Shown here in pieces: positions 2,528-38,616 of a stretch of 39,517 nt of DNA. The position numbers were made by a program, and so were the translations under genes. Positions within the stretch are counted from its first letter, which is position 1. Each line of letters starts with the position of its first letter. The stretch comes from a virus. The stretch is taken from positions 1 through 39,517 of IMG/VR virus record IMGVR_UViG_3300025009_000241. One strand, given 5' to 3'. The notes below the pieces were generated by a model. It worked only from the letters and a program-made list of their open reading frames with translations. It had not been told where the DNA came from and did no database searches.

Positions 2528-2542
2528 TATGCAAAATGGCAG
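2528..2542 (-). promoter_or_regulatory. 15-bp motif, copy 1 (before the metallophosphoesterase)
   Basis: Exact TATGCAAAATGGCAG (minus strand CTGCCATTTTGCATA), also at 20155 and 26957. Here it continues as TTAA, as in the 26957 copy. It lies in the only gap between the XhlA-like gene and the metallophosphoesterase. On the minus strand it ends in GCATACT, resembling a -10 element. Best guess is a phage-specific promoter or activator site. Confidence 0.6.
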
Positions 2543-2596
2543 TTAACACCATCGTATAGGTAAACGCGGGATTCTACTAGTACGCAAACGTAGCAA

Positions 2597-8827: not shown

Positions 8828-9235
8828 TTAATTACTTGCTTTGGTGGGTGTACCGCTGCCCTGGAAGTCGCAGGAAATTTCAACAACATCCGCATACGGC
8901 CATGAGATATTAGCTCCGCCAGCGAACGCAGGGATGGTGTACTTGCGTTTCCCTGATGCGGTGCCTTCCGGCTGGATAATAAGCGTGCCGAATGTGTTGG
9001 ATTCGAGTGCATCTTCTAACGCGGTTCCTGCGGACTGCATAACGCCCTTGTAGGAAACTTTGGTATCCTTCACGGTGCCGATGTAACTTTCAAACGCGTC
9101 AGCGCCTGCGGTTGCGTTGGCAAGTTTGCCACTTGGCGTGTAGGATACCGTGCGGAAGTCACCGCTTAACGCGATGGTGCCACCGGATGAGGGGAACCAG
9201 TTGATTACTAAATCCTTACCTGTGATTTCTGCCAT
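8828..9235 (-). CDS. Major tail tube protein
   Basis: A 135-residue protein starting MAEITGKDLVINW; the ATG at 9235 has AGGAG six bases upstream, so longer versions beginning further out are unlikely. It carries the signature of small siphovirus tube proteins: SGDFRTVSY, KDTKVSYKGVMQ, FGTLIIQPEG, KRKYTIPAF and VEISCDFQGSGTPT. It would form the hexameric rings of the tail tube. A close paralogue forms the N-terminal quarter of the 616-aa protein at 11046-12896. It is preceded by a terminator-like leader (9258-9339). Confidence 0.85.
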   Translation of the reverse strand: MAEITGKDLVINWFPSSGGTIALSGDFRTVSYTPSGKLANATAGADAFESYIGTVKDTKVSYKGVMQSAGTALEDALESNTFGTLIIQPEGTASGKRKYTIPAFAGGANISWPYADVVEISCDFQGSGTPTKASN

Positions 9236-15632: not shown

Positions 15633-17549
15633 TTATCCTTGAATGGTAACAATTGTGTTTGTAACGCGCTGTTTGATAGCCGCAAGCAACTTGTCCGCAT
15701 CTCCAGCCCCCCTATGTATTTCTCCGCGAAAAGCATCTACGCGTTTCAATAGGTCAATCGCGTTTTCAAATATCTCGAATTCGCTTCCCTCACAATCAGA
15801 CTTAAGAAGCGCAACCCGGTCAATCTCATACGTCTTGAACACGTTTTCAAGCGTGGTAGACGGTACTTCACCACCATCGAATATCATCCCGCCGCCGCTG
15901 TTATTCTTGTCTGTGCTAACAGTCACGTTCCTGCCATTCTTGGTGATAGCGCATAATTCAGCGGTGATACCTTCTAATTTATTGCGCTCGATATTCTCAA
16001 TCATGGCGTTGTAGTTTTCTTCATTCGGCTCGAATGCGATTACCTTGATACCAGGATACTTTTTAGCCAAGTAACACGAGACAATTCCTTTATGCGCTCC
16101 GATGTCGATTACCACATCCCCGGCTTTCAAGTCGAGGTTGTCTAACTTGTAATCCTTCTCAATTTCGCGGCTGATAATCTTGGTCAAGCCGTCTGAATCA
16201 GGTACGAGGTCAAGCCCGATATTACTTGCGAAGCCGTCTTTGATAATCTCGTTACCCTTCATTTCGTCATTGCACCCTAAACATGGAACGGACATGGAAC
16301 CATCAGGGTTATACAATCCAGTCTTGCCCCACTTGTGCATGTGTCCCTTTACGGGGTCGTGGACTTCCTCTGCCAATTTATCGAGGTAAGGAACCCAGAA
16401 ATCTTTAACAATGAGATCTGCGTCATAAGCCATTGCACCCGCGCGGGCGCGTTCGCGGTAAATTTTGTTACCTTTTTTCTGGTAAGCATTCTCTAACTTT
16501 TGATAAATAGCTCCAATGTGAGGGACAAACCAATAAGCGCCGTATTGTGTATATTCCGGCTCCGCTTCTGTGTCGCGGTCAAGTTTCCATCCCGAGAAGC
16601 ACAACTCGCCCATTGAGGACCAGTCGCCAACGATCACCGGGCAGCCTGCCGCTTGCGCTTCCAAAATAGGAATTCCAAACCCTTCACCTTTTGAGCACAA
16701 CAGGTGCACATCCATTGCGTTGTAAAGCAGGTTCATTGCACCATCCGGGTAACTCAACGATGCGTAATGGTATTGGTTGGCTAAAATTACATCCTTGCCT
16801 ATTTCCAGCCCTATGAATTGGCAGAAGGCGGGAATGTCAAACCCTTCGCCGCGCGTACCATCAGCGGTATGCAGGTATAGCATTGTGTCAGGGTGTTTGT
16901 CATGCAGCATCTTGAATGCGGATATGTTTTCAGCGAACGCCTTACGCGGGGGAAATCCTACGTTAGCCGCGACCATGCCAACAATGAATTTATCCTCGGG
17001 GAAGTCAATCTTGGCTCTGACTTCGGAGCGGTCAAGCGGTTTGAATACGTCTGTATCCACGCCATGAGGGATATAGTCATAATCCATCCCGGCATCATCC
17101 ATCATCTTGGCGCCATGCTTTGAAATAACGATTCTTTTATACGCTTGCTTTACGGCTTCTGCGTTCCCTGTCGTGATAGGGTGAGAATCTATAGGAAACC
17201 AGGGTATCCACTTCGTATTAGGAAACTGATCAGGCTCACACACCCACGCATCCATGAGGGATATAACCACGTCTGCTTTTGCGGTCTTAGCGTGTTGTTC
17301 TAACACATCCTGACCGTACCTGTGTCGCGCGTTCGGGTATATTTTTATCCCGTCAACCCAGTCAAGCGTGTGTCCTGATAATCCCGCGAATGACGAAATA
17401 CTCATGCTGTATCCGGCTTTTTGCAGACGCGGTACAAACAATCTAGTCTGACAACCATATCCGGTAGCGTAAAAAGGGCTGTTTGAGAACCACGAAATAG
17501 TCAGATTCTTTTCAGTTGTTAATGTGCTTTTCGCTTGTGTTTTAGTCAT
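15633..17549 (-). CDS. GT4 glycosyltransferase fused to FkbM-type methyltransferase
   Basis: A 638-residue protein of two enzymes. Residues about 15-370 are a GT-B/GT4 glycosyltransferase: FSNSPFYATGYGCQTR, IPHGVDTDVFKP, LLCSKGEGFGIPILEAQAAGCPVI (the EX7E donor-sugar signature region). Residues about 460-635 are an FkbM-type SAM methyltransferase: VVIDIGAHKGIVS (motif I), VIAFEPNEEN, and LLKSDCEGSEFEIF. Between them lies a CLGC segment. It probably adds and O-methylates a sugar, or modifies one acceptor twice. The ATG at 17549 is chosen over a longer leader because of its small overlap with the gene upstream. Confidence 0.9.
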   Translation of the reverse strand: MTKTQAKSTLTTEKNLTISWFSNSPFYATGYGCQTRLFVPRLQKAGYSMSISSFAGLSGHTLDWVDGIKIYPNARHRYGQDVLEQHAKTAKADVVISLMDAWVCEPDQFPNTKWIPWFPIDSHPITTGNAEAVKQAYKRIVISKHGAKMMDDAGMDYDYIPHGVDTDVFKPLDRSEVRAKIDFPEDKFIVGMVAANVGFPPRKAFAENISAFKMLHDKHPDTMLYLHTADGTRGEGFDIPAFCQFIGLEIGKDVILANQYHYASLSYPDGAMNLLYNAMDVHLLCSKGEGFGIPILEAQAAGCPVIVGDWSSMGELCFSGWKLDRDTEAEPEYTQYGAYWFVPHIGAIYQKLENAYQKKGNKIYRERARAGAMAYDADLIVKDFWVPYLDKLAEEVHDPVKGHMHKWGKTGLYNPDGSMSVPCLGCNDEMKGNEIIKDGFASNIGLDLVPDSDGLTKIISREIEKDYKLDNLDLKAGDVVIDIGAHKGIVSCYLAKKYPGIKVIAFEPNEENYNAMIENIERNKLEGITAELCAITKNGRNVTVSTDKNNSGGGMIFDGGEVPSTTLENVFKTYEIDRVALLKSDCEGSEFEIFENAIDLLKRVDAFRGEIHRGAGDADKLLAAIKQRVTNTIVTIQG

Positions 17550-17838
17550 GTAGCACCGCCACATTTTGCTGAGCCATATAGCCAATTTCGGTCATGTCGC
17601 CATTGTCATGTTCTATTTCTTTATAGTGCTCAAGAAATTCTTTACATATTTCTTGGTTTTTAGTCACCGATGCAACATACACAATACCAGCCGAACTTAT
17701 GGCTCTTATTTCTAAAGATACAATTGGTTTTATTTCACTTGCAAAATCTATAAACTTTGCCCCAAATTGTTCGGTTGAAATAGCCTTTATAAACTCGCTA
17801 TAAAGTTCTAATGCTTTAGTAACATTCTCTCTATTCAT
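17542..17838 (-). CDS. Hypothetical protein, 98 aa
   Basis: A mainly helical, acidic-ended protein (ALELYSEFIKAISTEQFGAKF; EFLEHYKEIEHDNGDM). No family is recognised. AGGA lies four bases before the ATG and the stop overlaps the GT4-FkbM start. It is the first gene after the capsid block and after the inverted repeat at 17869-17923. Confidence 0.7.
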   Translation of the reverse strand: MNRENVTKALELYSEFIKAISTEQFGAKFIDFASEIKPIVSLEIRAISSAGIVYVASVTKNQEICKEFLEHYKEIEHDNGDMTEIGYMAQQNVAVLHD

Positions 17839-17868
17839 TTTCCTAATCCTCTGTTAGGCTCCCAAGTA

Positions 17869-17923
17869 GGGACTGGCAGGCTGGGGAGGGGGCAGCTTTT
17901 CGGGAATTACCCTATCCAGTCCC
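17869..17923 (-). repeat. Inverted repeat forming a branched RNA after the decoration gene
   Basis: GGGACTGG (17869-17876) pairs perfectly with CCAGTCCC (17916-17923). Inside, GGG-TAATT-CCC and GCTG...CAGC can form two further stems, giving a three-way junction. There is no T-tract beside it, so it is not a normal terminator. It sits directly after the capsid/decoration genes, where RNA protection or partial attenuation would lower downstream expression. Confidence 0.6.
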
Positions 17924-19186: not shown

Positions 19187-19726
19187 TTAGTTGGGTAATG
19201 GACCGTTCCCGTAAATGAATGCCCGGCGCTGTTCGTCTGTGACGGTTCCTGTTGACGCGCCCGGATTCGTTGCGGATAGTCCTGGTTGTGGTTTCGGTAA
19301 AGCCTTTGCGATTGCTTCTGCCTTCGCCTTCATTTCGTCCTCTGTCCCCTCTGGGAGCAGGTCGTAAATGTCAGCGGGTATTTTGGCAGCCTCACCAACC
19401 TTGCGGCGTAGTTCGCGCAGTTCAGCGGCTTTGGTCTTGGCGGTCAGATCGTCAATGAGTTTTTGCGCCTTTTGCAATTCAGACATCTCGGCTGTTTTGC
19501 GGTCTTCTTCGGCTTTCTCAAACTCATCCGCCTTTTTCGCTTTCGGCTTCAATTCCCTATTCTCTTTTCGTAGGGCTTCGATGGTTGCCATTGCACGGGC
19601 AGCGTCAAACGGTTGCCCGTCCTTGCCTATTTCTGTTTCGGTGGTCACCTCGGTCTTGGCTGGCTCAGTCACGACTTCGGTTTCAATCTTTGCCACTGTC
19701 TCAGTAGCCTTTGTTTCTTCAGTCAT
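19187..19726 (-). CDS. Scaffolding protein
   Basis: A 179-residue, highly charged, Glu/Lys/Ala-rich coiled-coil protein (residues 50-120: ATIEALRKENRELKPKAKK, KLIDDLTAKTKAAELRELRR) with a flexible Thr/Glu-rich start and a Gly/Pro-rich end. These are typical of siphovirus scaffolds (phage minor structural GP20-like) that guide capsid assembly. It lies immediately upstream of the major capsid gene. AAGGAG lies eight bases before the ATG. The long structured leader upstream is described separately. Confidence 0.82.
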   Translation of the reverse strand: MTEETKATETVAKIETEVVTEPAKTEVTTETEIGKDGQPFDAARAMATIEALRKENRELKPKAKKADEFEKAEEDRKTAEMSELQKAQKLIDDLTAKTKAAELRELRRKVGEAAKIPADIYDLLPEGTEDEMKAKAEAIAKALPKPQPGLSATNPGASTGTVTDEQRRAFIYGNGPLPN

Positions 19727-19746: not shown

Positions 19747-19787
19747 AATAAAAAGCGCTTACTCTCCCATCTTGGGAAAATAAGCGC
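19747..19787 (-). terminator. Terminator-like hairpin in the scaffold leader
   Basis: On the minus strand GCGCTTA (19787-19781) pairs perfectly with TAAGCGC (19761-19755), with CCC/GGG inside, followed by TTTTTATTTT. It is a good intrinsic terminator placed about 20-60 bases before the scaffold start, so attenuation, read-through, or transcript boundary control is expected. Confidence 0.75.
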
Positions 19788-19794
19788 GGCTGGA

Positions 19795-19826
19795 TAGCGG
19801 GGCTTTGGTGCTATTCGGTTGTTATT
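19795..19826 (-). promoter_or_regulatory. Conserved leader box B (scaffold)
   Basis: Matches box A at 9308-9339 in 26 of 32 bases and has the same relation to a downstream terminator-like hairpin and a major virion gene. It begins only a few bases after the 3' end of the larger tRNA-like fold. Confidence 0.5.
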
Positions 19827-19830
19827 ACAA

Positions 19831-19971
19831 AGTGTGTGTCAGGATTTGAACCTGATCGAAGTAGCTCGCCTCTTGTGTGACTCGCCTCATGCGTTTTTAG
19901 GGAAAGAGTCGTTACTCTTTTTGCGTCTGTTACGTAGTAACCCTAACGTGTTCCCACCACGCCGCACACAC
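19831..19971 (-). ncRNA. tRNA-like structured RNA, about 141 nt
   Basis: On the minus strand the ends GTGTGTG and CACACAC form a 7-bp acceptor-like stem. The 3' stem is joined directly to a perfect T-arm: TCAGG, loop TTCAAAT, CCTGA. Near the 5' end CGTG/CACG with a GTGGGAA loop resembles a D-arm. The middle is not a normal anticodon arm: TTAGGG/CCCTAA encloses two hairpins (AAAGAGT/ACTCTTT and TTAC/GTAA), then a GAGGCGAG repeat. It is too short for tmRNA and has no obvious tag frame. It could be a degenerate or interrupted tRNA or a tRNA mimic used for RNase P/Z processing. Confidence 0.5.
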
Positions 19972-20023
19972 AGTAATTTCACTTGATAAGTAGATAACTT
20001 CGTAAGAGTGCTTCGTTATCCGT

Positions 20024-20111
20024 ATCCTTGCCGGGACGCACACCCGGATTCCACTAACTAGCGTCACGTGTGATTCAATAATGTTGATAGTTTCGCGACC
20101 TCATCAAGGAT
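20024..20111 (-). ncRNA. Second tRNA-like structured RNA, 88 nt
   Basis: ATCCTTG and CAAGGAT form a perfect 7-bp end stem, directly joined to a 5-bp stem CCGGG/CCCGG with a 7-base loop, exactly the acceptor/T-arm geometry. The loop (TGTGCGT) is not the T-loop consensus and no convincing anticodon arm is seen. Total length is that of a tRNA with a long variable arm. Likely a tRNA-like fold rather than a decoding tRNA. Confidence 0.4.
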
Positions 20112-20154
20112 TATTTATGTAATCATCGTAACCAGTAAGTCAGTAATCTCCTAT

Positions 20155-20169
20155 TATGCAAAATGGCAG
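20155..20169 (-). promoter_or_regulatory. 15-bp motif, copy 2 (before the capsid block)
   Basis: Exact TATGCAAAATGGCAG, also found at 2528 and 26957. In the transcription sense it is the first element of the leader of the scaffold-capsid genes, ending GCATAATA on the minus strand. This suggests a start of transcription for the head genes. Confidence 0.6.
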
Positions 20170-25688: not shown

Positions 25689-25897
25689 AACGGTATATCC
25701 TCGTCGACTATCTCAGGCAGGTTGCCCCACATTACAGTTGCTTCCGGCTGCCCCCAAATATGCCCAAAGTGTCTTGACGCGTGACCGCGTTCCAACTCGC
25801 AGGGGATAACCTTGTCACCGATGGTATACGCGTCCTGGCATTTCACGGGTATGCGCAGTAAATCCAGCACGCGGTAATCTGCTGCTGTCTCGGTCAT
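25685..25897 (-). CDS. Hypothetical protein, 70 aa
   Basis: A 70-residue acidic protein with single Cys and His residues (KVIPCELERGHASRHFGHIWG). No family is recognised. Its start overlaps the holin stop (TAATG) and its stop overlaps the HNH start, so it is probably co-translated. Confidence 0.6.
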   Translation of the reverse strand: MTETAADYRVLDLLRIPVKCQDAYTIGDKVIPCELERGHASRHFGHIWGQPEATVMWGNLPEIVDEDIPF

Positions 25898-26271
25898 TAC
25901 TGAGCGCGTAACTCTTCAGCGCGTCCCCGGTTGAATTCGTCCATGACTGCCGCTTCGATCAAGTCTGCCAACTGTCCTAAATCAAACTTGATTTTCTTCT
26001 CGGTCAACCATTCAGACGCTAATCCAAGCGCATATTCCTTTTTATCAATCGCCAACTCCGCAAGGTTGACTTGCTCGGCTGCCAACACTGCGGAGCGTGC
26101 CATTTCCTGCATGATAGCCAACACGTCAAGATTCATGGATGCAGTCCACTTAGCCAGTAACTTCTTGACAATGGCGACCAGGAACACGGCTGCGGCAACT
26201 GCAAGAGGCGGGATTACAGCGTTGAAAAATAATTGTAAAAACTGCCAAAAGAAATCGGTCAATACTTCCAT
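25897..26271 (-). CDS. LLH-type phage holin
   Basis: A 124-residue protein with one strong N-terminal transmembrane helix (residues about 15-35, AVIPPLAVAAAVFLVAIV) and a long helical cytoplasmic part (MQEMARSAVLAAEQVNLAELA, then KEYALGLASEWL), the pattern of the LLH holin family (superfamily 6). It would make the membrane lesion that frees the endolysin. ATG at 26271 has GAGGAG five bases upstream; an upstream GTG is less likely. It stands apart from the endolysin, before the terminase genes. Confidence 0.8.
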   Translation of the reverse strand: MEVLTDFFWQFLQLFFNAVIPPLAVAAAVFLVAIVKKLLAKWTASMNLDVLAIMQEMARSAVLAAEQVNLAELAIDKKEYALGLASEWLTEKKIKFDLGQLADLIEAAVMDEFNRGRAEELRAQ

Positions 26272-26273
26272 AT

Positions 26274-26486
26274 TCACTCCTCAAAATTATTATCGGGATC
26301 CATATCAGAGAAAACTATCTCTCTGTCACACAACCGTTTTTCCTGTTCGTATTCGCGCTTTTTGTCACTCACTAAAAAACGTAACCATTCAGGCCAATCC
26401 TCGCTGTCACCGTAGATGGATTCACAAGCGGAGCATAGGTCATGTTTACCTTTTATCGGGTGATTACATACGCAAGTACGAAGCAT
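26274..26486 (-). CDS. Zinc-ribbon-like small protein (70 aa)
   Basis: Start ATG at 26486 is chosen because GGAGG lies four bases upstream. The first residues CVCNHPI and the later LCSAC give two Cys pairs (residues about 4-6 and 17-20). The C-terminal part is acidic (FSDMDPDNNFEE). It overlaps the sigma-like gene upstream. It could be a small transcription or DNA-binding cofactor, but there is no direct evidence. Confidence 0.6.
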   Translation of the reverse strand: MLRTCVCNHPIKGKHDLCSACESIYGDSEDWPEWLRFLVSDKKREYEQEKRLCDREIVFSDMDPDNNFEE

Positions 26487-26496
26487 TTGCCCTCCA

Positions 26497-26706
26497 CTAT
26501 TCATAGGCATCCTGACTGTGCATTTTGTAACGTAATTGGCGTAACCATCTTGAAATTGTCATTCCTGATACCCCCATCTTCGCCCCCACTTCGCGCTGTG
26601 AGTATCCCTCCATGTACATCACCATTGCGCTTTTGTGGCGCTCCGGCAATTCAGCCAGTACCGCGTCCATGTCAATCCTAAAATCTACGTGTTCAACTTG
26701 TCGCAT
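26497..26706 (-). CDS. Sigma-70 region 4-like HTH protein
   Basis: A 69-residue protein with the region 4 pattern: ELPERHKSAMVMYMEGYSQREVGAKMGVSGMTISRWLRQLRYKM (residues 19-62), a helix-turn-helix that in full sigma factors binds the -35 element. It lacks the region 2 for promoter melting, so it may be a phage regulator that works with host RNA polymerase, such as a late transcription activator. It lies soon after the 15-bp motif at 26957 and before holin and terminase genes. Confidence 0.78.
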   Translation of the reverse strand: MRQVEHVDFRIDMDAVLAELPERHKSAMVMYMEGYSQREVGAKMGVSGMTISRWLRQLRYKMHSQDAYE

Positions 26707-26721
26707 GTCCCTCCATATAGG

Positions 26722-26898
26722 CTAACCCTCTATCAAATAAGCGGCATAAAATACGAGAAAGACAATTATTGTCGCTATGCAGATGACACCAATAAACCCC
26801 GCGGCTTCTGCCCACCCTACTGTTATGCCCATTACTACAAATACCAATGTCGCCAAACTAATAAGGATTCCTATTCCTGTTAACTTTCTTTTGCTCAT
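26722..26898 (-). CDS. Small membrane protein with two helices (58 aa)
   Basis: The ATG at 26898 has GGAGGG close upstream and gives MSKRKLTGIGILIS. Two hydrophobic stretches (residues about 7-25 and 33-52) suggest a hairpin in the membrane. It could be an antiholin or superinfection-exclusion protein, but nothing beyond size and topology supports this. It is the first gene after the terminator-like hairpin and the motif. Confidence 0.6.
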   Translation of the reverse strand: MSKRKLTGIGILISLATLVFVVMGITVGWAEAAGFIGVICIATIIVFLVFYAAYLIEG

Positions 26899-26906
26899 AT
26901 CCCTCC

Positions 26907-26938
26907 AATCAAAAAGCCCTATCATCATGGTAGGGCTT
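26907..26938 (-). terminator. Intrinsic terminator or 5' hairpin before the late genes
   Basis: AAGCCCTA (26914-26921) pairs perfectly with TAGGGCTT (26931-26938); on the minus strand the stem is followed by TTTTTGATT. It ends early transcription or caps the leader that begins at the motif just upstream. Confidence 0.75.
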
Positions 26939-26956
26939 ATGTCACACGGTAGCAAT

Positions 26957-26971
26957 TATGCAAAATGGCAG
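26957..26971 (-). promoter_or_regulatory. 15-bp motif, copy 3 (before the late genes)
   Basis: Exact TATGCAAAATGGCAG, followed by TTAA as in the copy at 2528. The minus strand reads CTGCCATTTTGCATAAT, where GCATAAT resembles a -10. It stands at the border between the early genes and the sigma-like, holin and terminase genes, the natural place of a late promoter. Confidence 0.6.
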
Positions 26972-26988
26972 TTAATTAATGTCAGGGG

Positions 26989-27324
26989 TCATTTAGCCCT
27001 ACCGTCTTCAAAATATTCAAAATAAAATCTTCCGTCCCACCCTCTCCAATTGATCATGTCGTATTTTTGGGCAACTTTGAATATGTAAATTTTCTCTAAC
27101 TTACGAAGCATACCCTGAACGCATACCCTGAACGCTTCGATAGACTGCGCCCTCTTGTAGTGATTACACAATCGACAAGAGGGCATTAAGTTATCAATAT
27201 TATCCGTCCCTCCCGTGTGCTTTGACTGTTTATGGTCAACCTGCATTGTTTTCAAAGTTAAATCGTGTCCACAATATGCACAGCGGTTATTATATTTTTC
27301 GAGCACTTGCTGTCTGCCTATCAT
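26989..27324 (-). CDS. HNH endonuclease
   Basis: A 111-residue protein: RCAYCG at residues 17-22, DHKQSKHTGGTDNIDNLMPSCRLCN, an HNH core with a CxxC zinc knuckle, and a basic/aromatic tail. The start at 27324 overlaps the stop of the LuxR-type gene (ATGA), with GAGGTG five bases upstream. It is likely a free-standing nicking or cutting enzyme, either mobile or acting in recombination or packaging. Confidence 0.88.
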   Translation of the reverse strand: MIGRQQVLEKYNNRCAYCGHDLTLKTMQVDHKQSKHTGGTDNIDNLMPSCRLCNHYKRAQSIEAFRVCVQGMLRKLEKIYIFKVAQKYDMINWRGWDGRFYFEYFEDGRAK

Positions 27325-27629
27325 CCCTCCACCTCGATATACTCCCCTACATTTGCGTGTATCAGCCGTAACTCCACACACTTGGCAACCGCGCACGGGG
27401 TTGACTGCGCGTTTAGTTTCCGGTGTACACGCGCAACATAATTCTTCACCACGCCCCGGGATATCCGCAACCTTCGCGCAATGCCGTCAATCGTTACGCC
27501 GTCCGCTATCAGTTGCATCACCTGTCGTTCGCGCCGGGCAAGGGTGACGTTTATCCGCCGCCGTCCGCGTTTGTTGCGCCGTAACTGTGTGAACAAGGTT
27601 AAGTCGATCAATGTCGGGTTATCTAGCAT
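27321..27629 (-). CDS. LuxR/GerE-type helix-turn-helix protein
   Basis: A 102-residue protein with a GerE-like DNA-binding domain, residues about 28-85: LARRERQVMQLIADGVTIDGIARRLRISRGVVKNYVARVHRKL. The second helix of the HTH (ISRGVVKNYVARVHRKL) should contact DNA. There is no receiver or ligand domain. It lies just before the border to late genes, so it may drive the late switch along with the sigma-4-like protein. GAGGAG lies five bases before the ATG. Confidence 0.83.
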   Translation of the reverse strand: MLDNPTLIDLTLFTQLRRNKRGRRRINVTLARRERQVMQLIADGVTIDGIARRLRISRGVVKNYVARVHRKLNAQSTPCAVAKCVELRLIHANVGEYIEVEG

Positions 27630-28047
27630 TCATCCTCCTCATAGTTTCAGCGTTCCTCTTTTTACCAATCCAGAATAATCTTCGTCTCATTTCAGCGTCA
27701 ACCTCAACCCCGGCATACTTCAGGTACAACACCGCGCCGTCCTCTGCTCGCAGGAATTCACGCGCTTCAGCATCCCCATTCCTGGCGTCAATGATTGCCT
27801 TCGTGATTACCGCCGCCGCCAGATCCACCGCGATATATCCTGTCACAACTTCGCAAGCCTGCTTTTTCGTGTACTGCCTGGACAAGTCAATACGGTGTAG
27901 GATGGTGCAAGACGCGCATCTTTTGGCATTCCAATCCAGCCGCGAGTCAATCTCAAACCATGCACCGCAGTCGATACAATTCTTTTCTACCTTGCTAGGC
28001 TCAACCGTGAAGAAGTCAAGTTTCACAGATAGCGGATAATCCATCAT
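27619..28047 (-). CDS. Zinc-finger-containing hypothetical protein (142 aa)
   Basis: Cys pairs CIDC (about residue 24) and CASC (about 44) suggest a zinc finger, followed by helical residues and a basic end (IGKKRNAETMRRMNAR). The start ATG overlaps the upstream stop (ATGA); a second ATG follows directly. The product overlaps the LuxR-type gene start by 11 bases. No function is known. Confidence 0.65.
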   Translation of the reverse strand: MMDYPLSVKLDFFTVEPSKVEKNCIDCGAWFEIDSRLDWNAKRCASCTILHRIDLSRQYTKKQACEVVTGYIAVDLAAAVITKAIIDARNGDAEAREFLRAEDGAVLYLKYAGVEVDAEMRRRLFWIGKKRNAETMRRMNAR

Positions 28048-28376
28048 TCCCCCTCGCTCCTCTCCAAATACTGCTCAATCTCGGATAACGCGCTCCCGTC
28101 CTCGATTTCCTTACGGGTGTATTGCAGGTAGGTGAATCCCAAAAGTTGCGCCAGGTTAGCCTTCTCGTAGTCTCGGTGAATTCCCACTGAACTTGAATGA
28201 CCACTTTTCACCATCCATGTACCACCGTTGCATTCTACGATCAACTTCTTCCCGTCCGTGATAATACAGATGTCAGCGCGAAACTTCCGTGTTTCACAAA
28301 ACTTATACTCGCGGATAGCCTCGATCCCCACAGCGCGGAGTTGAAACTCTAGTGTGTCGGCAAGGTCAGGGGTCAT
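28044..28376 (-). CDS. PD-(D/E)XK-like nuclease (resolvase/Vsr-like fold)
   Basis: A 110-residue protein with FRADICIITDGKKLIVECNGGTW, i.e. D...(E)xN/K pattern of PD-(D/E)XK nucleases, then GIHRDYEKANLAQLLGFTYLQY, a segment shared with phage Holliday-junction-type or VRR/DUF559-like proteins. It probably cuts branched DNA made during replication or recombination; RecT and methylases are in the same early operon. It overlaps both neighbours by four bases. Confidence 0.75.
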   Translation of the reverse strand: MTPDLADTLEFQLRAVGIEAIREYKFCETRKFRADICIITDGKKLIVECNGGTWMVKSGHSSSVGIHRDYEKANLAQLLGFTYLQYTRKEIEDGSALSEIEQYLERSEGE

Positions 28377-28636
28377 TCTTCGCCGCCAATTGACTTAAGC
28401 GTTTCGGTAAGTTGCTCCGCAAAGAAGCCGTGATTCTGGATGATTGTTGCCCATTCAGATAATTGTTTTTTCATTCCTAAAATACAATCAGCCACGCGCC
28501 CCGGAATCTGCGCTACGTTCAATGAGCCACATGACGAACACATCCAACCTTGAAACGTATCCGGGTCAATAGGTACACACACAGTGTCGTTAATGTTTTT
28601 GCAATCCGGGCAAAAGAATTTCGGTAAGTCACTCAT
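28373..28636 (-). CDS. Zinc-ribbon small protein (87 aa)
   Basis: CPDC at residue 9 and CSSCG near residue 33 suggest a zinc ribbon, followed by a helical tail (ILGMKKQLSEWATIIQNHG). Start and stop overlap neighbours by four bases. One of a series of tiny Cys-pair proteins in the early region; the function is unknown. Confidence 0.65.
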   Translation of the reverse strand: MSDLPKFFCPDCKNINDTVCVPIDPDTFQGWMCSSCGSLNVAQIPGRVADCILGMKKQLSEWATIIQNHGFFAEQLTETLKSIGGEE

Positions 28637-29406
28637 TTTTCCGCCTTTGAAATCACCACTAATACCGCGTTTACTCCCGTTCCAGATTCCTTAAATGAAC
28701 CTTCTGGCAATGGCTCTGAATATCCACCTTTGCCACATAACCAGTTTCTAAACTCGGTTGCTTTTTTATCTTCACGGAAAAACGCCCCTGATGACATTAC
28801 AGATACCATGCGCCCACCCGGCTTTAGAAACTCGTAGGCGTGTTTTACGTGGTCAATATCCTGTTGATTTTCAAAGGGCGGGTTCATGTATATTTTGTCG
28901 TGTTCTGGTTCTGAACGTCTCTCAAGAAAATCATCTGTCATGGCAGTAAAATATTTTTTACCAACAAGTACATTCCTACGCTCTTGATTCTTTTCAAATA
29001 CAAGGATTTGTCTTGCCCCATGTTCCCGCAAAGCGTCTGCAATCGCCCCTAATCCCGCGGACGGCTCTAGAATATAATCATCCTCACTTACTGGAACAAG
29101 TTCAAGCATCCGCTCAATGACAGCGCGTGGCGTTTCAAAGAATCCGTCTCTTTCAACTTCCAATACGCCGTTTTCTAGCAACCCCTCAACTGACGGACGC
29201 GGGTCAGTCTGGAACAAATGACACCCGCTTTTCTTATTCCACTTTCCGCCCATTGCGTCGAGCGCTTTATTAACCTTTTCGTACATTTTACGGTCAAGTT
29301 GTCCGCAGGTAAGTTTTCCAGATAACCCATCGTTCGAAAATACCATACTGCGTAAATACCCTAAAACGTCATTGTCAAACCTTATTTGTTTTATCAAGTT
29401 GCTCAT
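28633..29406 (-). CDS. Adenine-specific DNA methylase (NPPF motif)
   Basis: A 257-residue protein: ILEPSAGLGAIADALREHGA is SAM-binding motif I, IYMNPPFENQQDIDHV is the catalytic NPPF motif IV for adenine N6, and FLKPGGRMVSVM is a later Rossmann strand. The N-terminal 70 residues are an extra helical part. The ATG at 29406 has GGAG four bases upstream; the longer frame is unlikely. It could protect phage DNA from host restriction; no partner restriction enzyme is seen. Confidence 0.88.
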   Translation of the reverse strand: MSNLIKQIRFDNDVLGYLRSMVFSNDGLSGKLTCGQLDRKMYEKVNKALDAMGGKWNKKSGCHLFQTDPRPSVEGLLENGVLEVERDGFFETPRAVIERMLELVPVSEDDYILEPSAGLGAIADALREHGARQILVFEKNQERRNVLVGKKYFTAMTDDFLERRSEPEHDKIYMNPPFENQQDIDHVKHAYEFLKPGGRMVSVMSSGAFFREDKKATEFRNWLCGKGGYSEPLPEGSFKESGTGVNAVLVVISKAEK

Positions 29407-29570
29407 TTCACTCCAATCTTTGCCAGTATCCATCTCAACAGTGTGACGCGACCTGTGATGTGGCAGTAATCGCACCATTGACTATCTCCGCCACATCCAG
29501 AATATCCAAATTCGTCAATGTAAATGGTGAGGATTTTCAGCGTTCCCTTACACTTCGGGCAAGTTATCAT
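29403..29570 (-). CDS. Zinc-finger small protein (55 aa)
   Basis: CPKCKG near the start and CDYCHITGR near residue 35 give a DnaJ-like Cys-rich pattern, often a zinc ribbon. It overlaps both neighbours by four bases (ATGA). ATG at 29570 is chosen because of this overlap. No function is known. Confidence 0.65.
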   Translation of the reverse strand: MITCPKCKGTLKILTIYIDEFGYSGCGGDSQWCDYCHITGRVTLLRWILAKIGVK

Positions 29571-33725: not shown

Positions 33726-34541
33726 TCATTGGGTGAATAAAGACTGTTGGTTTTGTTGTTTCTCCATCAGTTCCTTTGAATACCCGTTTGTCTTTATTTC
33801 GTCCCTGATACTCTTACATTCGTCAACCCACTTAACCGCGTCCTTGTAAAAGTTTTTCTTGATCTCGAATCCGTATCCTATCCTTCCGGTATTGTTTGCA
33901 GCAACCAGGGTTGAGCCGCTCCCCGCAACGGGGTCAATTACAACGTCCCCCTCGTCTGTAAAAATCCGTATTAGTTTTTCAAGTAATGCAACTGGTTTCT
34001 GTGTCGGGTGGATTTTCTTGTAAAGGTAGTCTTTATCATCCTCCCAATCCATGACGTTGAATACCATCTTTCCGTTGTTGTTGAACTTTGGAAGTTTTTC
34101 ACGGTAAAGAAGTAGTGCGTATTCAGCATTCCCGACAATTCGCATATTAGCCTTTAGCACCTGGGCAGAAAAGTTTTTACGAAAAACAAGATTGATATAG
34201 TGCTTTATTTCGTATTCTTTTGCCAGTTCGATCAAATAGAATTGCTGTTCAAAACTACAAAAGACAATCATGCAGGGAGCTTTACCCGTTTCCTTTGGTT
34301 CCTTTATCATTAGCCTATTACAGAAGTGCATAAACTCCGCGGGTTTGAAATTCTCATCTGTATCAAAGAATGACTTACCCGCTAAATCACTCGGGCCGTT
34401 TTTATTGTCACCGTCAATGTACCAGGATGGATTAGAACCATAAGCATTATTCCCTACGTTATAAGGAATGTCCGCTATAACCAGTTGAGCGCGTGGTATC
34501 TGATACCCCTTGAAATTCTGGAAGTGGTCATTGATGAGCAT
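33726..34541 (-). CDS. Beta-class DNA methyltransferase (complete copy)
   Basis: A 271-residue DNA methyltransferase. The N-terminal catalytic motif is ADIPYNVGNN (motif IV), and the C-terminal SAM-binding motif is VIDPVAGSGSTLVAANNTGR (motif I), so the motif order is that of the beta class (N4-cytosine/N6-adenine). HPTQKPVALLEKLIR precedes motif I as usual. It probably masks phage DNA from host restriction. It lies after RecT in the early operon; a diverged copy is cut by the left edge. Confidence 0.92.
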   Translation of the reverse strand: MLINDHFQNFKGYQIPRAQLVIADIPYNVGNNAYGSNPSWYIDGDNKNGPSDLAGKSFFDTDENFKPAEFMHFCNRLMIKEPKETGKAPCMIVFCSFEQQFYLIELAKEYEIKHYINLVFRKNFSAQVLKANMRIVGNAEYALLLYREKLPKFNNNGKMVFNVMDWEDDKDYLYKKIHPTQKPVALLEKLIRIFTDEGDVVIDPVAGSGSTLVAANNTGRIGYGFEIKKNFYKDAVKWVDECKSIRDEIKTNGYSKELMEKQQNQQSLFTQ

Positions 34542-34563
34542 TACTATTCCCTCTCCTCTGTAA

Positions 34564-34596
34564 CTCCCGGCTTTGATTCCCCATATTAGCCGGGAG
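34564..34596 (-). repeat. Inverted repeat between RecT and the methyltransferase
   Basis: CTCCCGGCT (34564-34572) pairs perfectly with AGCCGGGAG (34588-34596). There is no T-tract after the stem, so an RNA-stabilising or processing hairpin is more likely than a strong terminator. Confidence 0.6.
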
Positions 34597-34606
34597 CATG
34601 AAACGC

Positions 34607-35545
34607 TTATATACTCAGCTTCTTGAGTTCTGTGTAGGCAGCGTCAAAATCGCCGCCTGCTTGATTTAGAATATCTTGTCCTTTGACGTTGGATACATTG
34701 ACTGCCTTTGCCAATTCCCAGAACATCTTTGAGGTAATCTTGACTGGTTCATCAGCCTTTTCTTCAATTGGTTCTGGTTCATCCTGGGGAGGGGCATCAT
34801 CACCAAATCCCAGCGCTCGCATGTTTTCCTCAACCGAATGAGGTACAACTTCCTGGATTTCAACTCCGGTGATAAAGTCCTCTTCGTCTTCGGCTTCGGT
34901 CATGTTCATCATGTCAAACGGATCCAGATAACCCCATTTTTTAAGACCAAGTATCATCACGGTTTTCTTGAACATAACCGGGGGGTCTTTTTGCCACATG
35001 CTGTCGCGGCTGTTGTAAGACTTCGAGTATTTCTGACCGTGCGCTTCACACTCTTCATTGGTCATGTAAAACGTCTTTGAGAAGCCGCTCAATAACTGGA
35101 AGTAAAGCATGTAACCAACAACCTTACCGCTCTTGCCGTGTCGATCAATCAGGTAATTTCCGGTCATGGTATCTTCTTGGAGAATGTCGGAATCGTAAAT
35201 CGTTATCAGATTTATAAACCGATATTTCCCTGTTCGGATTGCCATGTGGTAAATGCCCCTCCATCCTACAATCAGGGTTGCTTTACCACCAAACGGTACA
35301 ATGTGCGCCTGACCTGTTGAGGGGTCAACCGACAATCGCATGGTTGCTGCTCGTAGTGCTGATGATATGATAGAGTTTGGATTGCAGTTCTGTAAATCCT
35401 TATTCTGTGCAACTGCAATTAACACGCTGGAAATGTAGCCCCCGGCGTTATTGTTACCAACCACTTCTGCAAAACGGCTGTTGATCTCGTTGCTTCGCAT
35501 AATGGCTTTCAAACTGTTTTCTTGCTTGACTGCTAATTCACTCAT
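34607..35545 (-). CDS. recT: RecT-family single-strand annealing protein
   Basis: A 312-residue protein of the RecT family: QNCNPNSIISSALRAATMRLSVDPSTGQAHIVPFG, LIVGWRGIYHMAIRTGKYR and a conserved MWQKDPPVMFKKTVMILGLKKWG segment. It anneals single strands during phage recombination and replication. No recE/exonuclease partner is clear; the 130-aa protein at 35559 lies in the usual place of one but does not look like it. The acidic C-terminal tail resembles that of other RecT proteins. GAGGAG lies eight bases before the ATG. Confidence 0.92.
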   Translation of the reverse strand: MSELAVKQENSLKAIMRSNEINSRFAEVVGNNNAGGYISSVLIAVAQNKDLQNCNPNSIISSALRAATMRLSVDPSTGQAHIVPFGGKATLIVGWRGIYHMAIRTGKYRFINLITIYDSDILQEDTMTGNYLIDRHGKSGKVVGYMLYFQLLSGFSKTFYMTNEECEAHGQKYSKSYNSRDSMWQKDPPVMFKKTVMILGLKKWGYLDPFDMMNMTEAEDEEDFITGVEIQEVVPHSVEENMRALGFGDDAPPQDEPEPIEEKADEPVKITSKMFWELAKAVNVSNVKGQDILNQAGGDFDAAYTELKKLSI

Positions 35546-35558
35546 TGCGTTTTCTCCT

Positions 35559-35951
35559 CTACTTGTCTAATTTGATTGTTGCGGTTGGGTCGGTCTTTGA
35601 CAATACAACTGGCTCAACCTTTGCTTCTTTACAGATTGCCTTGAAATCATAATCCGTTTCAACTGTGGTAAACTTAGCAACCACATCTGGAACCTCATCT
35701 GCAACGGCAGCCCAATCAGTTGATTCGCGCTGTGTTGCGTATTTCGACTTGATTTCATTTGACACAGTTGCGCATGGAGTAGTGTAATCATAAGTAGCGC
35801 GTCCGCCAGAATAAGTAACCCGAACACCCCCGACCACCTGTGTTTTTTCTAACTTCAAAACTTCGGCTTCAATCTCGCTTCCAAGAACGTCTAGAGACAA
35901 CTTATTCTTTTCCCACAACAATATCTTTTCTGCTAATTCTGATGCATTCAT
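35559..35951 (-). CDS. Protein upstream of RecT (130 aa)
   Basis: A 130-residue protein: helical start (ASELAEKILLWEKNKLSLDVLG), a beta part with TYSGGRATYDYTTPC and an end KTDPTATIKLDK. Similar small proteins lie beside RecT-like genes in some phages, without known activity. ATG at 35951 is chosen because GAGGAG lies six bases before it, whereas the ATG at 35957 directly abuts that site. Confidence 0.65.
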   Translation of the reverse strand: MNASELAEKILLWEKNKLSLDVLGSEIEAEVLKLEKTQVVGGVRVTYSGGRATYDYTTPCATVSNEIKSKYATQRESTDWAAVADEVPDVVAKFTTVETDYDFKAICKEAKVEPVVLSKTDPTATIKLDK

Positions 35952-35962
35952 TTTCATCTCCT

Positions 35963-36193
35963 CTAAATTGGTAATTCCTGTGCGTCAGTTGACGCAATAG
36001 CTGATAACGAATCCAGGTACGCTTGCGGTAAGTCAGCCTTCTCGATCTCCGCGCCGCACCTTCGGCAGAAGTAGAATATCCCTCCGCCGTGAAAACATAT
36101 CTCGCCTGATGCACCATCGAAGTATTCGACAGGCTCAACATAGTCAGCGCATATCAGGTCTACGGGGTGCTTGCATCGGATGTCAAACATCAT
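35963..36193 (-). CDS. Zinc-ribbon small protein (76 aa)
   Basis: A Cys pair FCRRCG near residue 44 and single Cys residues earlier (RCKHPV, LICADY) give a zinc-binding pattern. The C-terminal part is acidic. The start overlaps the upstream stop (ATGA). Function unknown. Confidence 0.62.
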   Translation of the reverse strand: MMFDIRCKHPVDLICADYVEPVEYFDGASGEICFHGGGIFYFCRRCGAEIEKADLPQAYLDSLSAIASTDAQELPI

Positions 36194-36465
36194 TCACCAT
36201 CCTCTACATTCACGCCGTTCAATTTGACATACATCATGTGGGCTTTGAGGTCAGCCTGCTTGCACAATTCTTCGTGTTCATTCATTGTGTCAATCATGTG
36301 GTAAGTTAGCCAGTAATCCACGTTATCCGTGTATTGTCGCCATAGTCTCTCGGCTTCTTGTTGCGCCTTGATGTATTCGACTTCCAGCGGAGCGCGGACT
36401 TTCGGCTTCAGGTCAGCCCATGTGTACGTGCGGTCGCGGTCAGAACATCCTATGCAGGCGGTCAT
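36190..36465 (-). CDS. Hypothetical protein, 91 aa
   Basis: A helical protein with CIGC at the N-terminus and long helices (EVEYIKAQQEAERLWRQY; NEHEELCKQADLKAHMM). AAGGAG lies five bases before the ATG; both ends overlap neighbours. Function unknown. Confidence 0.62.
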   Translation of the reverse strand: MTACIGCSDRDRTYTWADLKPKVRAPLEVEYIKAQQEAERLWRQYTDNVDYWLTYHMIDTMNEHEELCKQADLKAHMMYVKLNGVNVEDGE

Positions 36466-36902
36466 TTCGACTCCTTGTCAAATCTTTCCCAACACTTGTT
36501 TTTAGTCGGGAAACTAGCACATGCACTAAAGCTTCCGCAACCAGCGCACTCATCCCATTTTGGCTTCTTATCATAATCTGCGGATTGATACCACCACGCA
36601 GGACAAGTAAACTTTCGCATTTCAGATTTGTGAGGGAATTTCTCGCCATCCAACCAATTGGTATAAGGCATTCCACCAAAGTCCATTTTACCGCCAGTTA
36701 TAATGCCGGGGTTTACCTCAAGTATTGTGTGAATTTTTGCATCCCCCCGTTGTTCAAACTCCTCGTATTCGTGAGTAAACTTACGCTTGCCCATGCCTTT
36801 GCAGTCTTGACAAACAACGCCGTAACCGTCACGCTCTGCCATTCCCACATAAACACCCGTACCCTTACACGATTTACATTTTTCAATCAGTTCAATCTTC
36901 AT
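36462..36902 (-). CDS. DnaJ-like zinc-finger protein (146 aa)
   Basis: CKSCKGTGVYVG and CQDCKGMG are the two halves of a DnaJ-type CxxCxGxG zinc finger at residues 9-40. The C-terminal part adds more Cys residues (CPAWW, CAGCGSFSACASF). Function is unknown; DnaJ-like fingers often bind single-stranded or unfolded partners. GAGGAG lies six bases before the ATG. Confidence 0.7.
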   Translation of the reverse strand: MKIELIEKCKSCKGTGVYVGMAERDGYGVVCQDCKGMGKRKFTHEYEEFEQRGDAKIHTILEVNPGIITGGKMDFGGMPYTNWLDGEKFPHKSEMRKFTCPAWWYQSADYDKKPKWDECAGCGSFSACASFPTKNKCWERFDKESK

Positions 36903-36988
36903 CGTTTTCTCCTCTCAAAATATTCAACTAATCCAGCCAGCCCAAGCGCCAGTAGTATCAGAACGTAGCCTAACACGATTGCGGGCAT
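36899..36988 (-). CDS. Tiny membrane peptide (29 aa)
   Basis: MPAIVLGYVLILLALGLAGL is one hydrophobic helix, followed by a VEYFERRKR basic end. The ATG overlaps the stop of the RHH gene (TAATG) and its own stop overlaps the next ATG, so it is translated by coupling. It may be a toxin-like or membrane-anchoring peptide; function unknown. Confidence 0.65.
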   Translation of the reverse strand: MPAIVLGYVLILLALGLAGLVEYFERRKR

Positions 36989-37254
36989 TATTCGTATCCT
37001 TTGTCACTGCCGACAATCTCAATGTCATTGACGTCATGCACCAGGCTAACGTGCGGCTTCTTGTCCGCAAACATCTTGTCGATGCGGTCATACATTGCGG
37101 TGCCGGATGAAGGGATCTTGCCAATGACGGGGATCTGAGCAACCAGACGGCGGACTGCTTCAGACAATCCAACGCCTTCGACTGAAGCGTATGCCTCAAG
37201 TCTATCTTTCAATTCCTGATCCATTCTTACGATTACCGTTTGTGTTTTAGCCAT
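36988..37254 (-). CDS. Ribbon-helix-helix (CopG/Arc-type) regulator
   Basis: An 88-residue protein with an N-terminal RHH fold: KTQTVIVRMDQELKDRLEAYASVEGVGLSEAVRRLVAQ (residues 3-40), where the VIVRM strand would enter the DNA major groove and the two helices make the dimer. The C-terminal part is short and acidic. It is the second early gene, close to the box and palindrome clusters at 37680-38045, and is the best candidate to bind them. GAGGAG lies four bases before the ATG. Confidence 0.85.
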   Translation of the reverse strand: MAKTQTVIVRMDQELKDRLEAYASVEGVGLSEAVRRLVAQIPVIGKIPSSGTAMYDRIDKMFADKKPHVSLVHDVNDIEIVGSDKGYE

Positions 37255-37306
37255 GTTACTCCTCTCGTTTGATTTTCGCGTGTACCATGCGCGACCCGGA
37301 TTGACA

Positions 37307-37501
37307 CTATCGGATATTGTGTGCTGCTTTCAATATTGCTTTTCCTAATTTAATGGACTGTTCTTTGTTCATGTATACAAATGCGTCTGCCTTGTGTCCC
37401 ATGCGCTCGCTAGCCACTATAACAACAGAATCTGGCGTATTTGAAACTGAGATTTTTTCGTCCTCAAAAATACCTTCGATTGTTTCGTGTGTAATTTTCA
37501 T
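37307..37501 (-). CDS. First gene of the early operon, hypothetical (64 aa)
   Basis: A 64-residue alpha/beta protein (VVIVASERMGHKADAFVYM, then a basic amphipathic helix QSIKLGKAILKAAHN). It is the first gene reached from the operator region. GAGGAG lies eight bases before the ATG. No family is recognised. Confidence 0.62.
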   Translation of the reverse strand: MKITHETIEGIFEDEKISVSNTPDSVVIVASERMGHKADAFVYMNKEQSIKLGKAILKAAHNIR

Positions 37502-38105
37502 TTTGTTTTCTCCTCTTGTATGCTTACATTATTACACAATGTAATACACTTGTCAATACCCCAATTTCCACCAGTTTCCACCATCCCCCTCCGTGTTCTC
37601 GGAATGCTATGCGATATGCTGGCCAAGCCACCAGGATTGATTCTAATGCGCGTAAACCATTAGCGTGTATGTAATTTGATGCGAGAAGTTATCAACTTTG
37701 ATAACAATTGGCAATAGATTATCATTTGGTACTAAAAAGTGGTACTAAAGTATAATACGAACTGACAAAGGATATTTGACAGTTGCCTATTCCCCCTGTC
37801 TACTGGAATATAACAAATTTGTTATGTCCCACTTGTGATCCACAGCCGGATTAGTGTCTCACTTTGTTTCAATTATTGTAAAGTTTTGAAACGGGATTAT
37901 AAAGCATTTCAATTTTCAACATTTGTTGAAATGCCGGAGTGAGCATCCGAGAAATGAAGCACACGTTAGGATTATTATAAACATGATTATTAAAGCCCAC
38001 ACTTATCATACATAGATCAGTGTCAACCCTCACATTTATCGAACGAAAGTGTGTGACATCTGTGGTACAAATACCGCCATTGTACCGTCCGAATTAGCGT
38101 GAATT
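37502..38105. promoter_or_regulatory. Operator/promoter region of the early operon (right copy)
   Basis: About 600 bases without genes. It has the TTATCAA-CT-TTGATAA palindrome (37689-37704), TGGTACTA boxes 13 bases apart (37727, 37740), a perfect 16-base palindrome ATAACAAATTTGTTAT (37810-37825), TGTCYCAC repeats (37825, 37855) and CACAYTTATC repeats (37998, 38031). The same spacings of 30 and 33 bases occur in the left copy at 267-900. An extra stretch of about 58 bases separates the TGGTACTA boxes from the palindrome here. Minus-strand TATACT may be a -10 element. Confidence 0.6.
37689..37825. repeat. Palindrome and box cluster (right copy)
   Basis: Contains the TTATCAA/TTGATAA palindrome, two tandem TGGTACTA boxes and the perfect ATAACAAATTTGTTAT palindrome. 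Elements and order match 646-749, with changed centres and an insertion. This shows that the arms, rather than the whole sequence, are kept. Confidence 0.65.
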
Positions 38106-38136
38106 GAACAAACTCCGAGAATTGACAAGTTTGTTC
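38106..38136 (-). repeat. Inverted repeat next to the terminator
   Basis: GAACAAACT (38106-38114) pairs with AGTTTGTTC (38128-38136), giving a 9-bp stem just past the terminator in the direction of late transcription. It may be a back-up terminator or a site in the operator region. Confidence 0.55.
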
Positions 38137-38157
38137 AGCGTATGGATGTAAACAAAA

Positions 38158-38175
38158 ACACCCCCGAAGGAGTGT
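38158..38175 (-). terminator. Intrinsic terminator at the end of the late operon (right copy)
   Basis: On the minus strand ACACTCC-TTCG-GGGGTGT forms a 7-bp stem (one T-G pair) with a stable UUCG loop, followed by TTTTTGTTT. It occupies the same position as 907-950, so the terminator is kept by place and not by sequence. Confidence 0.85.
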
Positions 38176-38388
38176 CTTTGCGTTGTGGCCGCTAGTTTTA
38201 CGTCTTGGCGCTACGCGAATCTACAACCACTGGCAAATGTGGAGGATTTCTACCCACCGGCAGGGCATAGTCAAATAGTTCAGGCAGCCACGCCTTTGCG
38301 ACCAACTTCCCTCAAACTCACAACTGATCGGACAACTCATTTGTATACCGCCAGTCGTCATGGCTTGGTTAGCGACATCATCGCTAGT
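38176..38388. other. Non-coding 3' region (right copy)
   Basis: About 210 bases between the tRNA-like element and the terminator. A 46-codon minus-strand frame (38221-38361) rich in Cys has no ribosome binding site. Otherwise nothing recognised. Confidence 0.45.
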
Positions 38389-38460
38389 TGCTCCGAGAGG
38401 GAATCGAACGCCTCGTTCTCCGCCTAGAATGCACGGGCTTTGCCACTTAGCTATCGGAGC
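38389..38460 (-). tRNA. tRNA-Arg(UCU)-like gene, with imperfect stems
   Basis: The 72 bases fit cloverleaf geometry: acceptor GCTCCGA/TCGGAGC (7 bp), D-arm GCT...AGC with an AGTGGCA loop, anticodon loop ATTCTAG (T33, anticodon TCT, A37), T-loop TTCGATT and discriminator A. No CCA is encoded. The anticodon stem and the T-stem each have two mismatches, so it may be degenerate, a tRNA-like processing signal or a tRNA needing editing. It lies after the metallophosphoesterase on the right copy only. Confidence 0.6.
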
Positions 38461-38535
38461 AGTCTTGCGATCGTGTGGTTGATTGGAACCACATAAATAT
38501 TATTGCACGACATTTTTCATTTGTCAAGTAGCTGC

Positions 38536-38566
38536 GGAGCGCCGCCCTTTCGGGTTACAGCGCTCC
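38536..38566 (-). ncRNA. GNRA-capped hairpin (right copy)
   Basis: On the minus strand GGAGCGC/GCGCTCC encloses a UGUAA bulge and the apical CCC-GAAA-GGG. The cap and UAA are shared with 1193-1221 while the lower stem differs, keeping pairing. It lies between the metallophosphoesterase and the tRNA-like gene. Confidence 0.6.
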
Positions 38567-38616
38567 ATTTTACCGCACGTTGGCGGGCAGTACAACGGGG
38601 AATGACCCCGGTGGTG

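Follow-up and report, generated by a model that had tools for sequence, protein, structure and literature searches.

The window analysed here is the whole of the 39,517-base IMG/VR virus record IMGVR_UViG_3300025009_000241, which comes from a phage of an environmental sample. Its subject is a small helix-turn-helix (HTH) protein of the GerE type encoded at the border between early and late genes, together with a short repeated DNA motif and the terminator-like hairpins that accompany it. The named genes of the window all lie on the minus strand. In the order of transcription, the border consists of the GerE gene, an HNH endonuclease gene, the motif, a hairpin, a membrane open reading frame (ORF) of 58 amino acids (aa), a sigma-region-4-like protein, a 78-aa ORF and a holin. 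Beyond the holin come further small ORFs and then the terminase, portal, head and tail genes, while RecT, methylases and a replication initiator occupy the early side. These genes and motifs, their order, the hairpins, and the synteny and conservation described below are directly seen in the sequences. The features on which the argument depends are as follows.

27321..27629, minus strand: GerE-only HTH protein, 102 aa, proposed late regulator (PF00196, GerE fold, same place in six relatives)
26957..26971, minus strand: motif A copy 1, CTGCCATTTTGCATA, exact 15-mer
26914..26938, minus strand: hairpin and T-run just before the ribosome-binding site of the next gene (-10.9 kcal/mol; fold z -2.95)
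20155..20169, minus strand: motif A copy 2, ahead of the scaffold and capsid genes, where a stretch missing from the relative G002 begins
19755..19787, minus strand: strong terminator-like hairpin directly before the scaffold gene (-22.6 kcal/mol), also in G002 and L068
9266..9298, minus strand: third intergenic terminator-like hairpin, in the late operon before the major tail gene (-16.0 kcal/mol), no adjoining motif
2577..2596, minus strand: motif B, TTGCTACGTTTGCGTACTAG, the relatives' version, located 54 bp upstream of copy 3 of motif A
2528..2542, minus strand: motif A copy 3, ahead of the phosphoesterase gene (1550-2512), not followed by a hairpin

The GerE protein of the window matches PF00196 with 50.2 bits (cut-off 23.5; E 1.9e-13) and PHROG 3282 at E 7.8e-11, with no second domain matched. 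Its AlphaFold2 model is a four-helix GerE domain with block pLDDT (predicted local distance difference test) values of 85-95 over residues 31-90, residues 1-25 and 94-102 falling below 50. The top PDB matches in Foldseek are GerE and DegU, none below E 1e-3; such weak values may be expected for domains as short as this one and the sigma-4 domain discussed below. The match above the curated cut-off, combined with the GerE fold, places the protein among the GerE/LuxR-NarL HTH domains. It is not a LuxR-type quorum sensor or response regulator, since the HTH domain is all that the window protein and its relatives possess (86-102 aa), and the GerE-type protein lacking a sensing domain that an earlier note on this DNA had described is thus real. 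No RinA or Ltr name occurs among the families matched at E<=1, a comparison made by family name and not against Ltr sequences, and a named Q family is likewise absent from the family matches. As a query in IMG/VR the window protein found no relative.

The portal gene search returned L065 (100%), then L066, L067 and L068 (91%), and L069 (38%), and no portal alignment was confirmed in GTDB genomes that would point to a host genome. Searching with the GerE protein of L066 gave six loci, with three new records (G006, G007 and G008), and L084 (G009) was found via a neighbouring ORF. PF00196 exceeds its cut-off in seven of the nine scanned records, namely the window and six relatives (G002, G004, G006, G007, G008 and G009); the records without it are a fragment that does not contain the region (G001) and a distant relative (G005). 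The six relatives have their GerE-only gene at this early-late border too, in the order GerE plus one gene, the sequence TTGCT-N5-TGCGTA, a hairpin and the first late gene, with the motif 480-793 bp downstream of GerE in each (6/6). The slot filled by the HNH gene in the window holds a methylase or another ORF in the relatives. In L066 and L068, for example, the series runs GerE-only gene, methylase, TTGCTACTTTTGCGTACTAG, hairpin and holin, and the GerE gene of L066 follows a homologue of window ORF 27619-28047. A second motif copy precedes a protease-type gene in G006, G007 and G009 (Mu-like in L084), each with its own downstream terminator; the arrangement resembles that of window copy 2 ahead of the scaffold gene. 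By reading, L084, L092 and L094 have terminase ORFs that look unlike that of the window, which suggests that the module moves independently of the packaging genes.

The 15-mer CTGCCATTTTGCATA is the only one present three times in the window, all copies being exact and in gene sense, and none of 200 dinucleotide shuffles contained any 15-mer three times. Its copies precede the lysis-module region, the scaffold and head genes, and the phosphoesterase. The motif consists of two short boxes, CTGCC-N4-TGCATA in the main motif of the window (motif A) and TTGCT-N5-TGCGTA in the relatives (motif B/C). The latter has 10 matches in seven records (nine of them in the six relatives), all in gene sense, against 0.025 expected from shuffles in the window and 0-0.02 in five relatives. 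Across the 10 aligned sites (6 distinct 16-mers), positions 1-5, 11-16 and 18 are invariant, which amounts to 12 of the first 18 columns. The 20-mer of L066 and L068 recurs in the window as motif B, with one difference at a free position. No gene-sense motif A was found in L066 or L068, and no gene-sense TTGCT-N5-TGCGTA, with up to one mismatch, in L067 (a fragment), L069/L082 (G005), L085, L086 or L087. A motif A look-alike in G002 (18001, one mismatch) has the opposite sense and was left uncounted. The exact 15-mer was matched in 62 stretches of IMG/VR, almost always as a single copy in another contig (only 3300025154_000408 is listed twice), and is therefore no widespread element. By eye, motif A runs into CATAAT/CATACT.

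Other identities considered for the motif were set aside. A palindromic dimer site does not fit, motif A having a weak dyad and motif B/C none by eye. The promoter of a single-subunit phage RNA polymerase, with the motif as one block, was also rejected, since no RNA polymerase gene is named among the window ORFs scanned. There is presumably also some resemblance to a CII-like TTGC-N6-TTGC site.

Does GerE read the motif? The GerE genes of L066 (2103-2369) and L094 (415-675) are almost identical in codons at their ends, which makes the gene a mosaic. In the older middle part, all 11 residues of the turn and recognition helix are kept, with several synonymous changes, against 7 of 24 in helices 1-2; the two phages carry identical TTGCT-N5-TGCGTA boxes. 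In the window the recognition helix differs, and so does the main motif. Such covariation of helix and motif, seen in two protein types only, is what recognition of the motif by GerE would predict. One could propose instead that the motif serves some host factor, or a phage protein other than GerE, as promoter or operator, and that GerE has a different target. In favour of this, the window has a motif B but no GerE of the B type, and G005, with its distant portal, has neither GerE nor motif B/C. We consider it unlikely, because GerE and the motif co-occur in the same order in all six GerE-bearing relatives and conservation of the recognition helix goes with conservation of the motif.

Other genes show a mosaic like that of GerE, with nearly the same beginnings and ends around exchanged or diverged interiors. 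Window ORF 28044-28376 and L068:2564-2986 share their first 51 of 51 bases, and the interior of the latter, RusA, has no match to the window interior. Two different ORFs, window 28633-29478 and L068:1837-2379, have 74 of their first 75 bases in common (MVRLLPHHRSRHTVEMDTGKDWSEM) and then diverge.

The hairpins constitute the second line of evidence. Intrinsic terminators were judged by a scan for a hairpin plus T-run with a cut-off of -9 kcal/mol, which gave 11 sense-strand matches in the window, 13 in G002, 3 in L068, 4 each in L084 and L094, and 5 in the first 15 kb of L092; L095 lay outside the scan and is counted since its sequence there equals that of L094. At all nine motif sites of the relatives a hairpin follows, its distance from the motif start being 31-32 nucleotides (nt) at six lysis-side sites and 76-80 nt at three protease-side sites. 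The corresponding window values are 33 nt at copy 1 and 382 nt at copy 2. The chance of meeting a terminator-like hairpin within 85 nt is 0.023-0.038 per site, and the hairpin-bearing sites amount to about three independent families. By reading, the lysis-side hairpin differs in sequence among L066, L084 and L092 with its pairs kept, and the protease-side and scaffold-side hairpins likewise keep their pairs despite sequence change; the window hairpin is unrelated in sequence to the lysis-side hairpins of the relatives. The T-run stands only about 4-10 nt from the Shine-Dalgarno sequence by reading, so that a start site past the hairpin is unlikely and the transcript must cross the hairpin.

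Several further observations concern the hairpin regions. An element of 27-31 nt (ACAACYGAATAGCA...AAGCCCCGCT) occurs on the minus strand at window 9309-9335 and 19796-19822, immediately upstream of the hairpins that precede the major tail and scaffold genes, respectively, and also stands before the scaffold gene of G002 (L066:10230). A stretch of about 340 nt (window 19796-20155, minus strand) begins at motif copy 2 and is absent from G002. Its 3' half could fold like a tRNA, with a 7-bp end stem and a T-arm-like CAGGTTCAAATCCTG; the stretch received no ARAGORN or Rfam call, and its whole fold lies within shuffles (z -1.45).

Taken together, these observations suggest that these phages switch to their late genes through GerE acting at the motif, a reading to which we assign a probability of roughly two in three. 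GerE would bind the two boxes, about one helical turn apart, in late promoters; RNA polymerase starting at the motif promoter would meet an intrinsic terminator ahead of the first gene; GerE would most likely let the polymerase past that terminator, as AlpA and the phage Q proteins do; and passage would result in expression of the lysis, head and tail genes. We infer here that GerE binds the motif, that the motif lies within a promoter, and that the terminator is bypassed instead of the promoter being merely activated. Given a GerE late switch, antitermination is slightly favoured by the motif near a terminator, the T-run just before the Shine-Dalgarno sequence, and the hairpins before the scaffold and major tail genes, and plain activation has a little less than an even chance. 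A bolder reading, less likely than not, is that a bare GerE domain of about 90-100 residues serves as a processive antiterminator. It would then be one more, unrelated and very small, protein answer to the Q/AlpA task, doing without the known nozzle and loading at a two-box site of its own that is repeated before the lysis and head modules.

Two kinds of late switch are known with this gene order, Ltr/RinA activators and Q/AlpA antiterminators. Q and AlpA load on the polymerase at an element within the promoter and carry it past the terminator (PMC7969949; PMC6606751; PMC9371919). The site of AlpA in Pseudomonas aeruginosa, GGGACG-N5-GGTA, lies in the promoter, with a terminator from +54 ahead of the lysis genes (PMC7969949). 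The arrangement found here is similar in its two-box site (with a 5-bp gap in the motif of the relatives), in the terminator just downstream and ahead of the first gene, in the HTH protein, and in having two target operons, one of them for lysis genes (PMC7969949; PMC9371919). Judged by sequence, a terminator stands before the first gene within 80 nt at the nine relative sites and at window copy 1, at 382 nt at copy 2, and not at copy 3. AlpA differs in having an N-terminal ring segment and a 21Q-like fold, whereas here there is a GerE domain only and no -35 was recognised (PMC7969949; PMC9371919); residues 1-25 of the window protein, where such a segment could be sought, are unstructured in the model, and no further domain is present.

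In phage 21, the Q protein recognises direct repeats between -35 and -10, and its H3-H6 fold has been likened to sigma region 4 (PMC6606751). The direct-repeat site in a late promoter and the terminator before the late genes are shared with the present case, and the nozzle-forming helices of Q are not seen in GerE (PMC6606751). RinA, Ltr and Alt, from staphylococcal and lactococcal phages, also use repeats as binding sites and drive packaging, head and lysis genes; they activate the promoter from upstream repeats, at about -107 to -42 and -76 to -32 for Ltr/Alt (PMC13123087). They differ in being described as unlike any known bacterial factor and in repeats placed further upstream, and the word 'terminator' does not occur in that text (PMC13123087).

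A role like that of Ltr or RinA is the alternative that deserves most discussion. GerE would then be a plain late activator that brings host RNA polymerase to late promoters which lie at the motif and are weak, and the hairpins would do no more than end early read-through, shield the mRNA at its 5' end or adjust the level of expression. Activation is the classic role of GerE/NarL-type domains, motif copy 3 has no terminator and GerE no nozzle domain, all of which would suit such a role. We regard it as doubtful nonetheless, because with spacing like that of Ltr/Alt transcription would begin no earlier than the hairpin, near the Shine-Dalgarno sequence, and because a hairpin with T-run lies past the motif at nine of nine relative sites and also before the scaffold and major tail genes.

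Several points weigh against a GerE switch that works by terminator bypass. On the side of the hairpins, none lies near motif copy 3, G002 and L068 have the scaffold hairpin without the motif, and the hairpins could act as 5' mRNA stabilisers. On the side of the protein, GerE, at 86-102 aa with a GerE domain only and an N-terminus unstructured in the model, is too small for a Q/AlpA nozzle. The window protein and those of the relatives are too divergent for BLASTP (window against L066 gives no alignment), and what links them is the domain, the place and a MAFFT alignment at 32-39%. As to the sites, the gap is 4 bp in motif A and 5 bp in motif B/C, the single motif B of the window coexists with a GerE of another type, and no convincing -35 was seen by eye at any motif site. 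Finally, the six relatives weigh less than their number, since they derive from three metagenome datasets and some are nearly identical.

For cultured phages, tblastn gave weak results with GerE of the window, of L066 or with the second GerE of G002, and better ones with a Rhizobium protein (44 records). Among Dobby, BT-1011, PY223, N2, N3_2, Y25, Versailles and Efs 1-1-1, the layout is clear only in the Rhizobium phages: RHph_Y25, RHph_N2 and RHph_N3_2 encode a 67-71 aa GerE-type 'LuxR family' protein between the early genes and the terminase, with a long gap one to four genes after it. Unlike in the window, these gaps hold no motif of this kind, and that of Y25 has one weak terminator-like hairpin (-11.2 kcal/mol). 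The partial literature searched held nothing on point about GerE/LuxR proteins as phage late regulators or antiterminators; the layout and its logic are known, and a GerE-only protein with a two-box motif and adjacent terminators was not found there. If the reading is true, an unlabelled small HTH protein, of a kind present also at the early-late border of cultured Rhizobium phages, acquires a predicted role as late switch and a defined target sequence, and if read-through is confirmed, terminator bypass does not require the Q/AlpA ring.

Downstream of a second GerE-only ORF near the end of G002 (L079:1345-1620), copies of the 16-mer GGTTTTCCCTACGTTG flank a terminator-like hairpin, and a small membrane ORF also follows; this is perhaps another case with another motif. 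The G+C content rises beyond about 18 kb in G002, which may therefore join two phages.

The earlier note had proposed a pair of regulators, made up of GerE and the following protein:

26497..26706, minus strand: sigma-region-4-only protein, 69 aa (PF08281 E 9.9e-9, 35.2 bits against 25.7)

As that note had it, this protein lacks the core sigma regions. The match to PF08281 covers region 4 only, AlphaFold2 gives a sigma-4-like helical domain, and region 4 of sigma-70 is present without region 2 in the same protein; the top PDB matches in Foldseek are mostly sigma region 4 chains, none below E 1e-3, and IMG/VR returned no relative to it as query. GerE upstream and this gene downstream do flank motif copy 1 in transcription sense, with the HNH gene and the 58-aa membrane ORF intervening, so that the two are no direct neighbours. 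The note had the sigma-4-like protein read a -35-like box and GerE activate, the two jointly redirecting host RNA polymerase. Both proteins lie near the motif in the window, and the 69-aa protein resembles domains that bind -35 DNA. However, the PF08281 search of the nine records yielded the window's protein as the single separate sigma-4 protein. The strong matches in the six relatives are the GerE proteins at the same coordinates, and the remaining three, in G002, fall below the cut-off, one of them being the second GerE at 1393-1548. Near the motif, none of the six GerE-bearing relatives has a separate sigma-4 gene, which in these mostly incomplete records may lie elsewhere. On the co-conservation check that the note had named, the GerE half is thus kept in all six relatives with the related motif and the sigma-4 half is missing. 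No -35 was seen at the motif sites, and the sigma-4 gene, being downstream of copy 1, should be a product of late transcription. A split switch is accordingly very improbable. The idea of redirecting host RNA polymerase via the motif survives as the best reading, without the pair, and the sigma-4-like protein is best read as a late gene of the window phage only, probably dispensable for the switch. In Bacillus subtilis, SigO and RsoA split the sigma regions over separate proteins. Unlike there, no region 2 partner is seen here, and GerE is not a sigma region.

The remaining annotated genes around the border and the motif copies are the following.

26989..27324, minus strand: HNH endonuclease gene between GerE and motif copy 1 (PF01844 E 6e-10), start inferred, its ATG overlapping the GerE stop (ATGA)
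26722..26898, minus strand: small membrane ORF, 58 aa, first gene past motif copy 1, ATG start inferred, no confident family match
25897..26277, minus strand: holin (LLH family) of the lysis module (PF09682 E 1.1e-9)
19187..19726, minus strand: head scaffold gene (phrog_1793 E 6.5e-10)
8828..9235, minus strand: major tail protein, start inferred (phrog_1407 E 4.9e-6)

The ends of the window, 1-2512 and 34327-39517, are diverged copies (84-90%) of one region with a phosphoesterase, a non-coding stretch and a methylase, the left-end copy being without the RecT block. The window is probably a circular genome with ends from two strains, or else carries a real duplication. A tRNA-Glu(TTC) gene (38387-38461, minus strand) lies in the non-coding region close to the early genes. 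Among the structural genes, a 650-aa ORF (15633-17585, minus strand) fuses a glycosyltransferase with a methyltransferase, and the Rfam int-alpA RNA has a near-threshold match at 17858-17922 on the minus strand (35.5 bits against 35.8).
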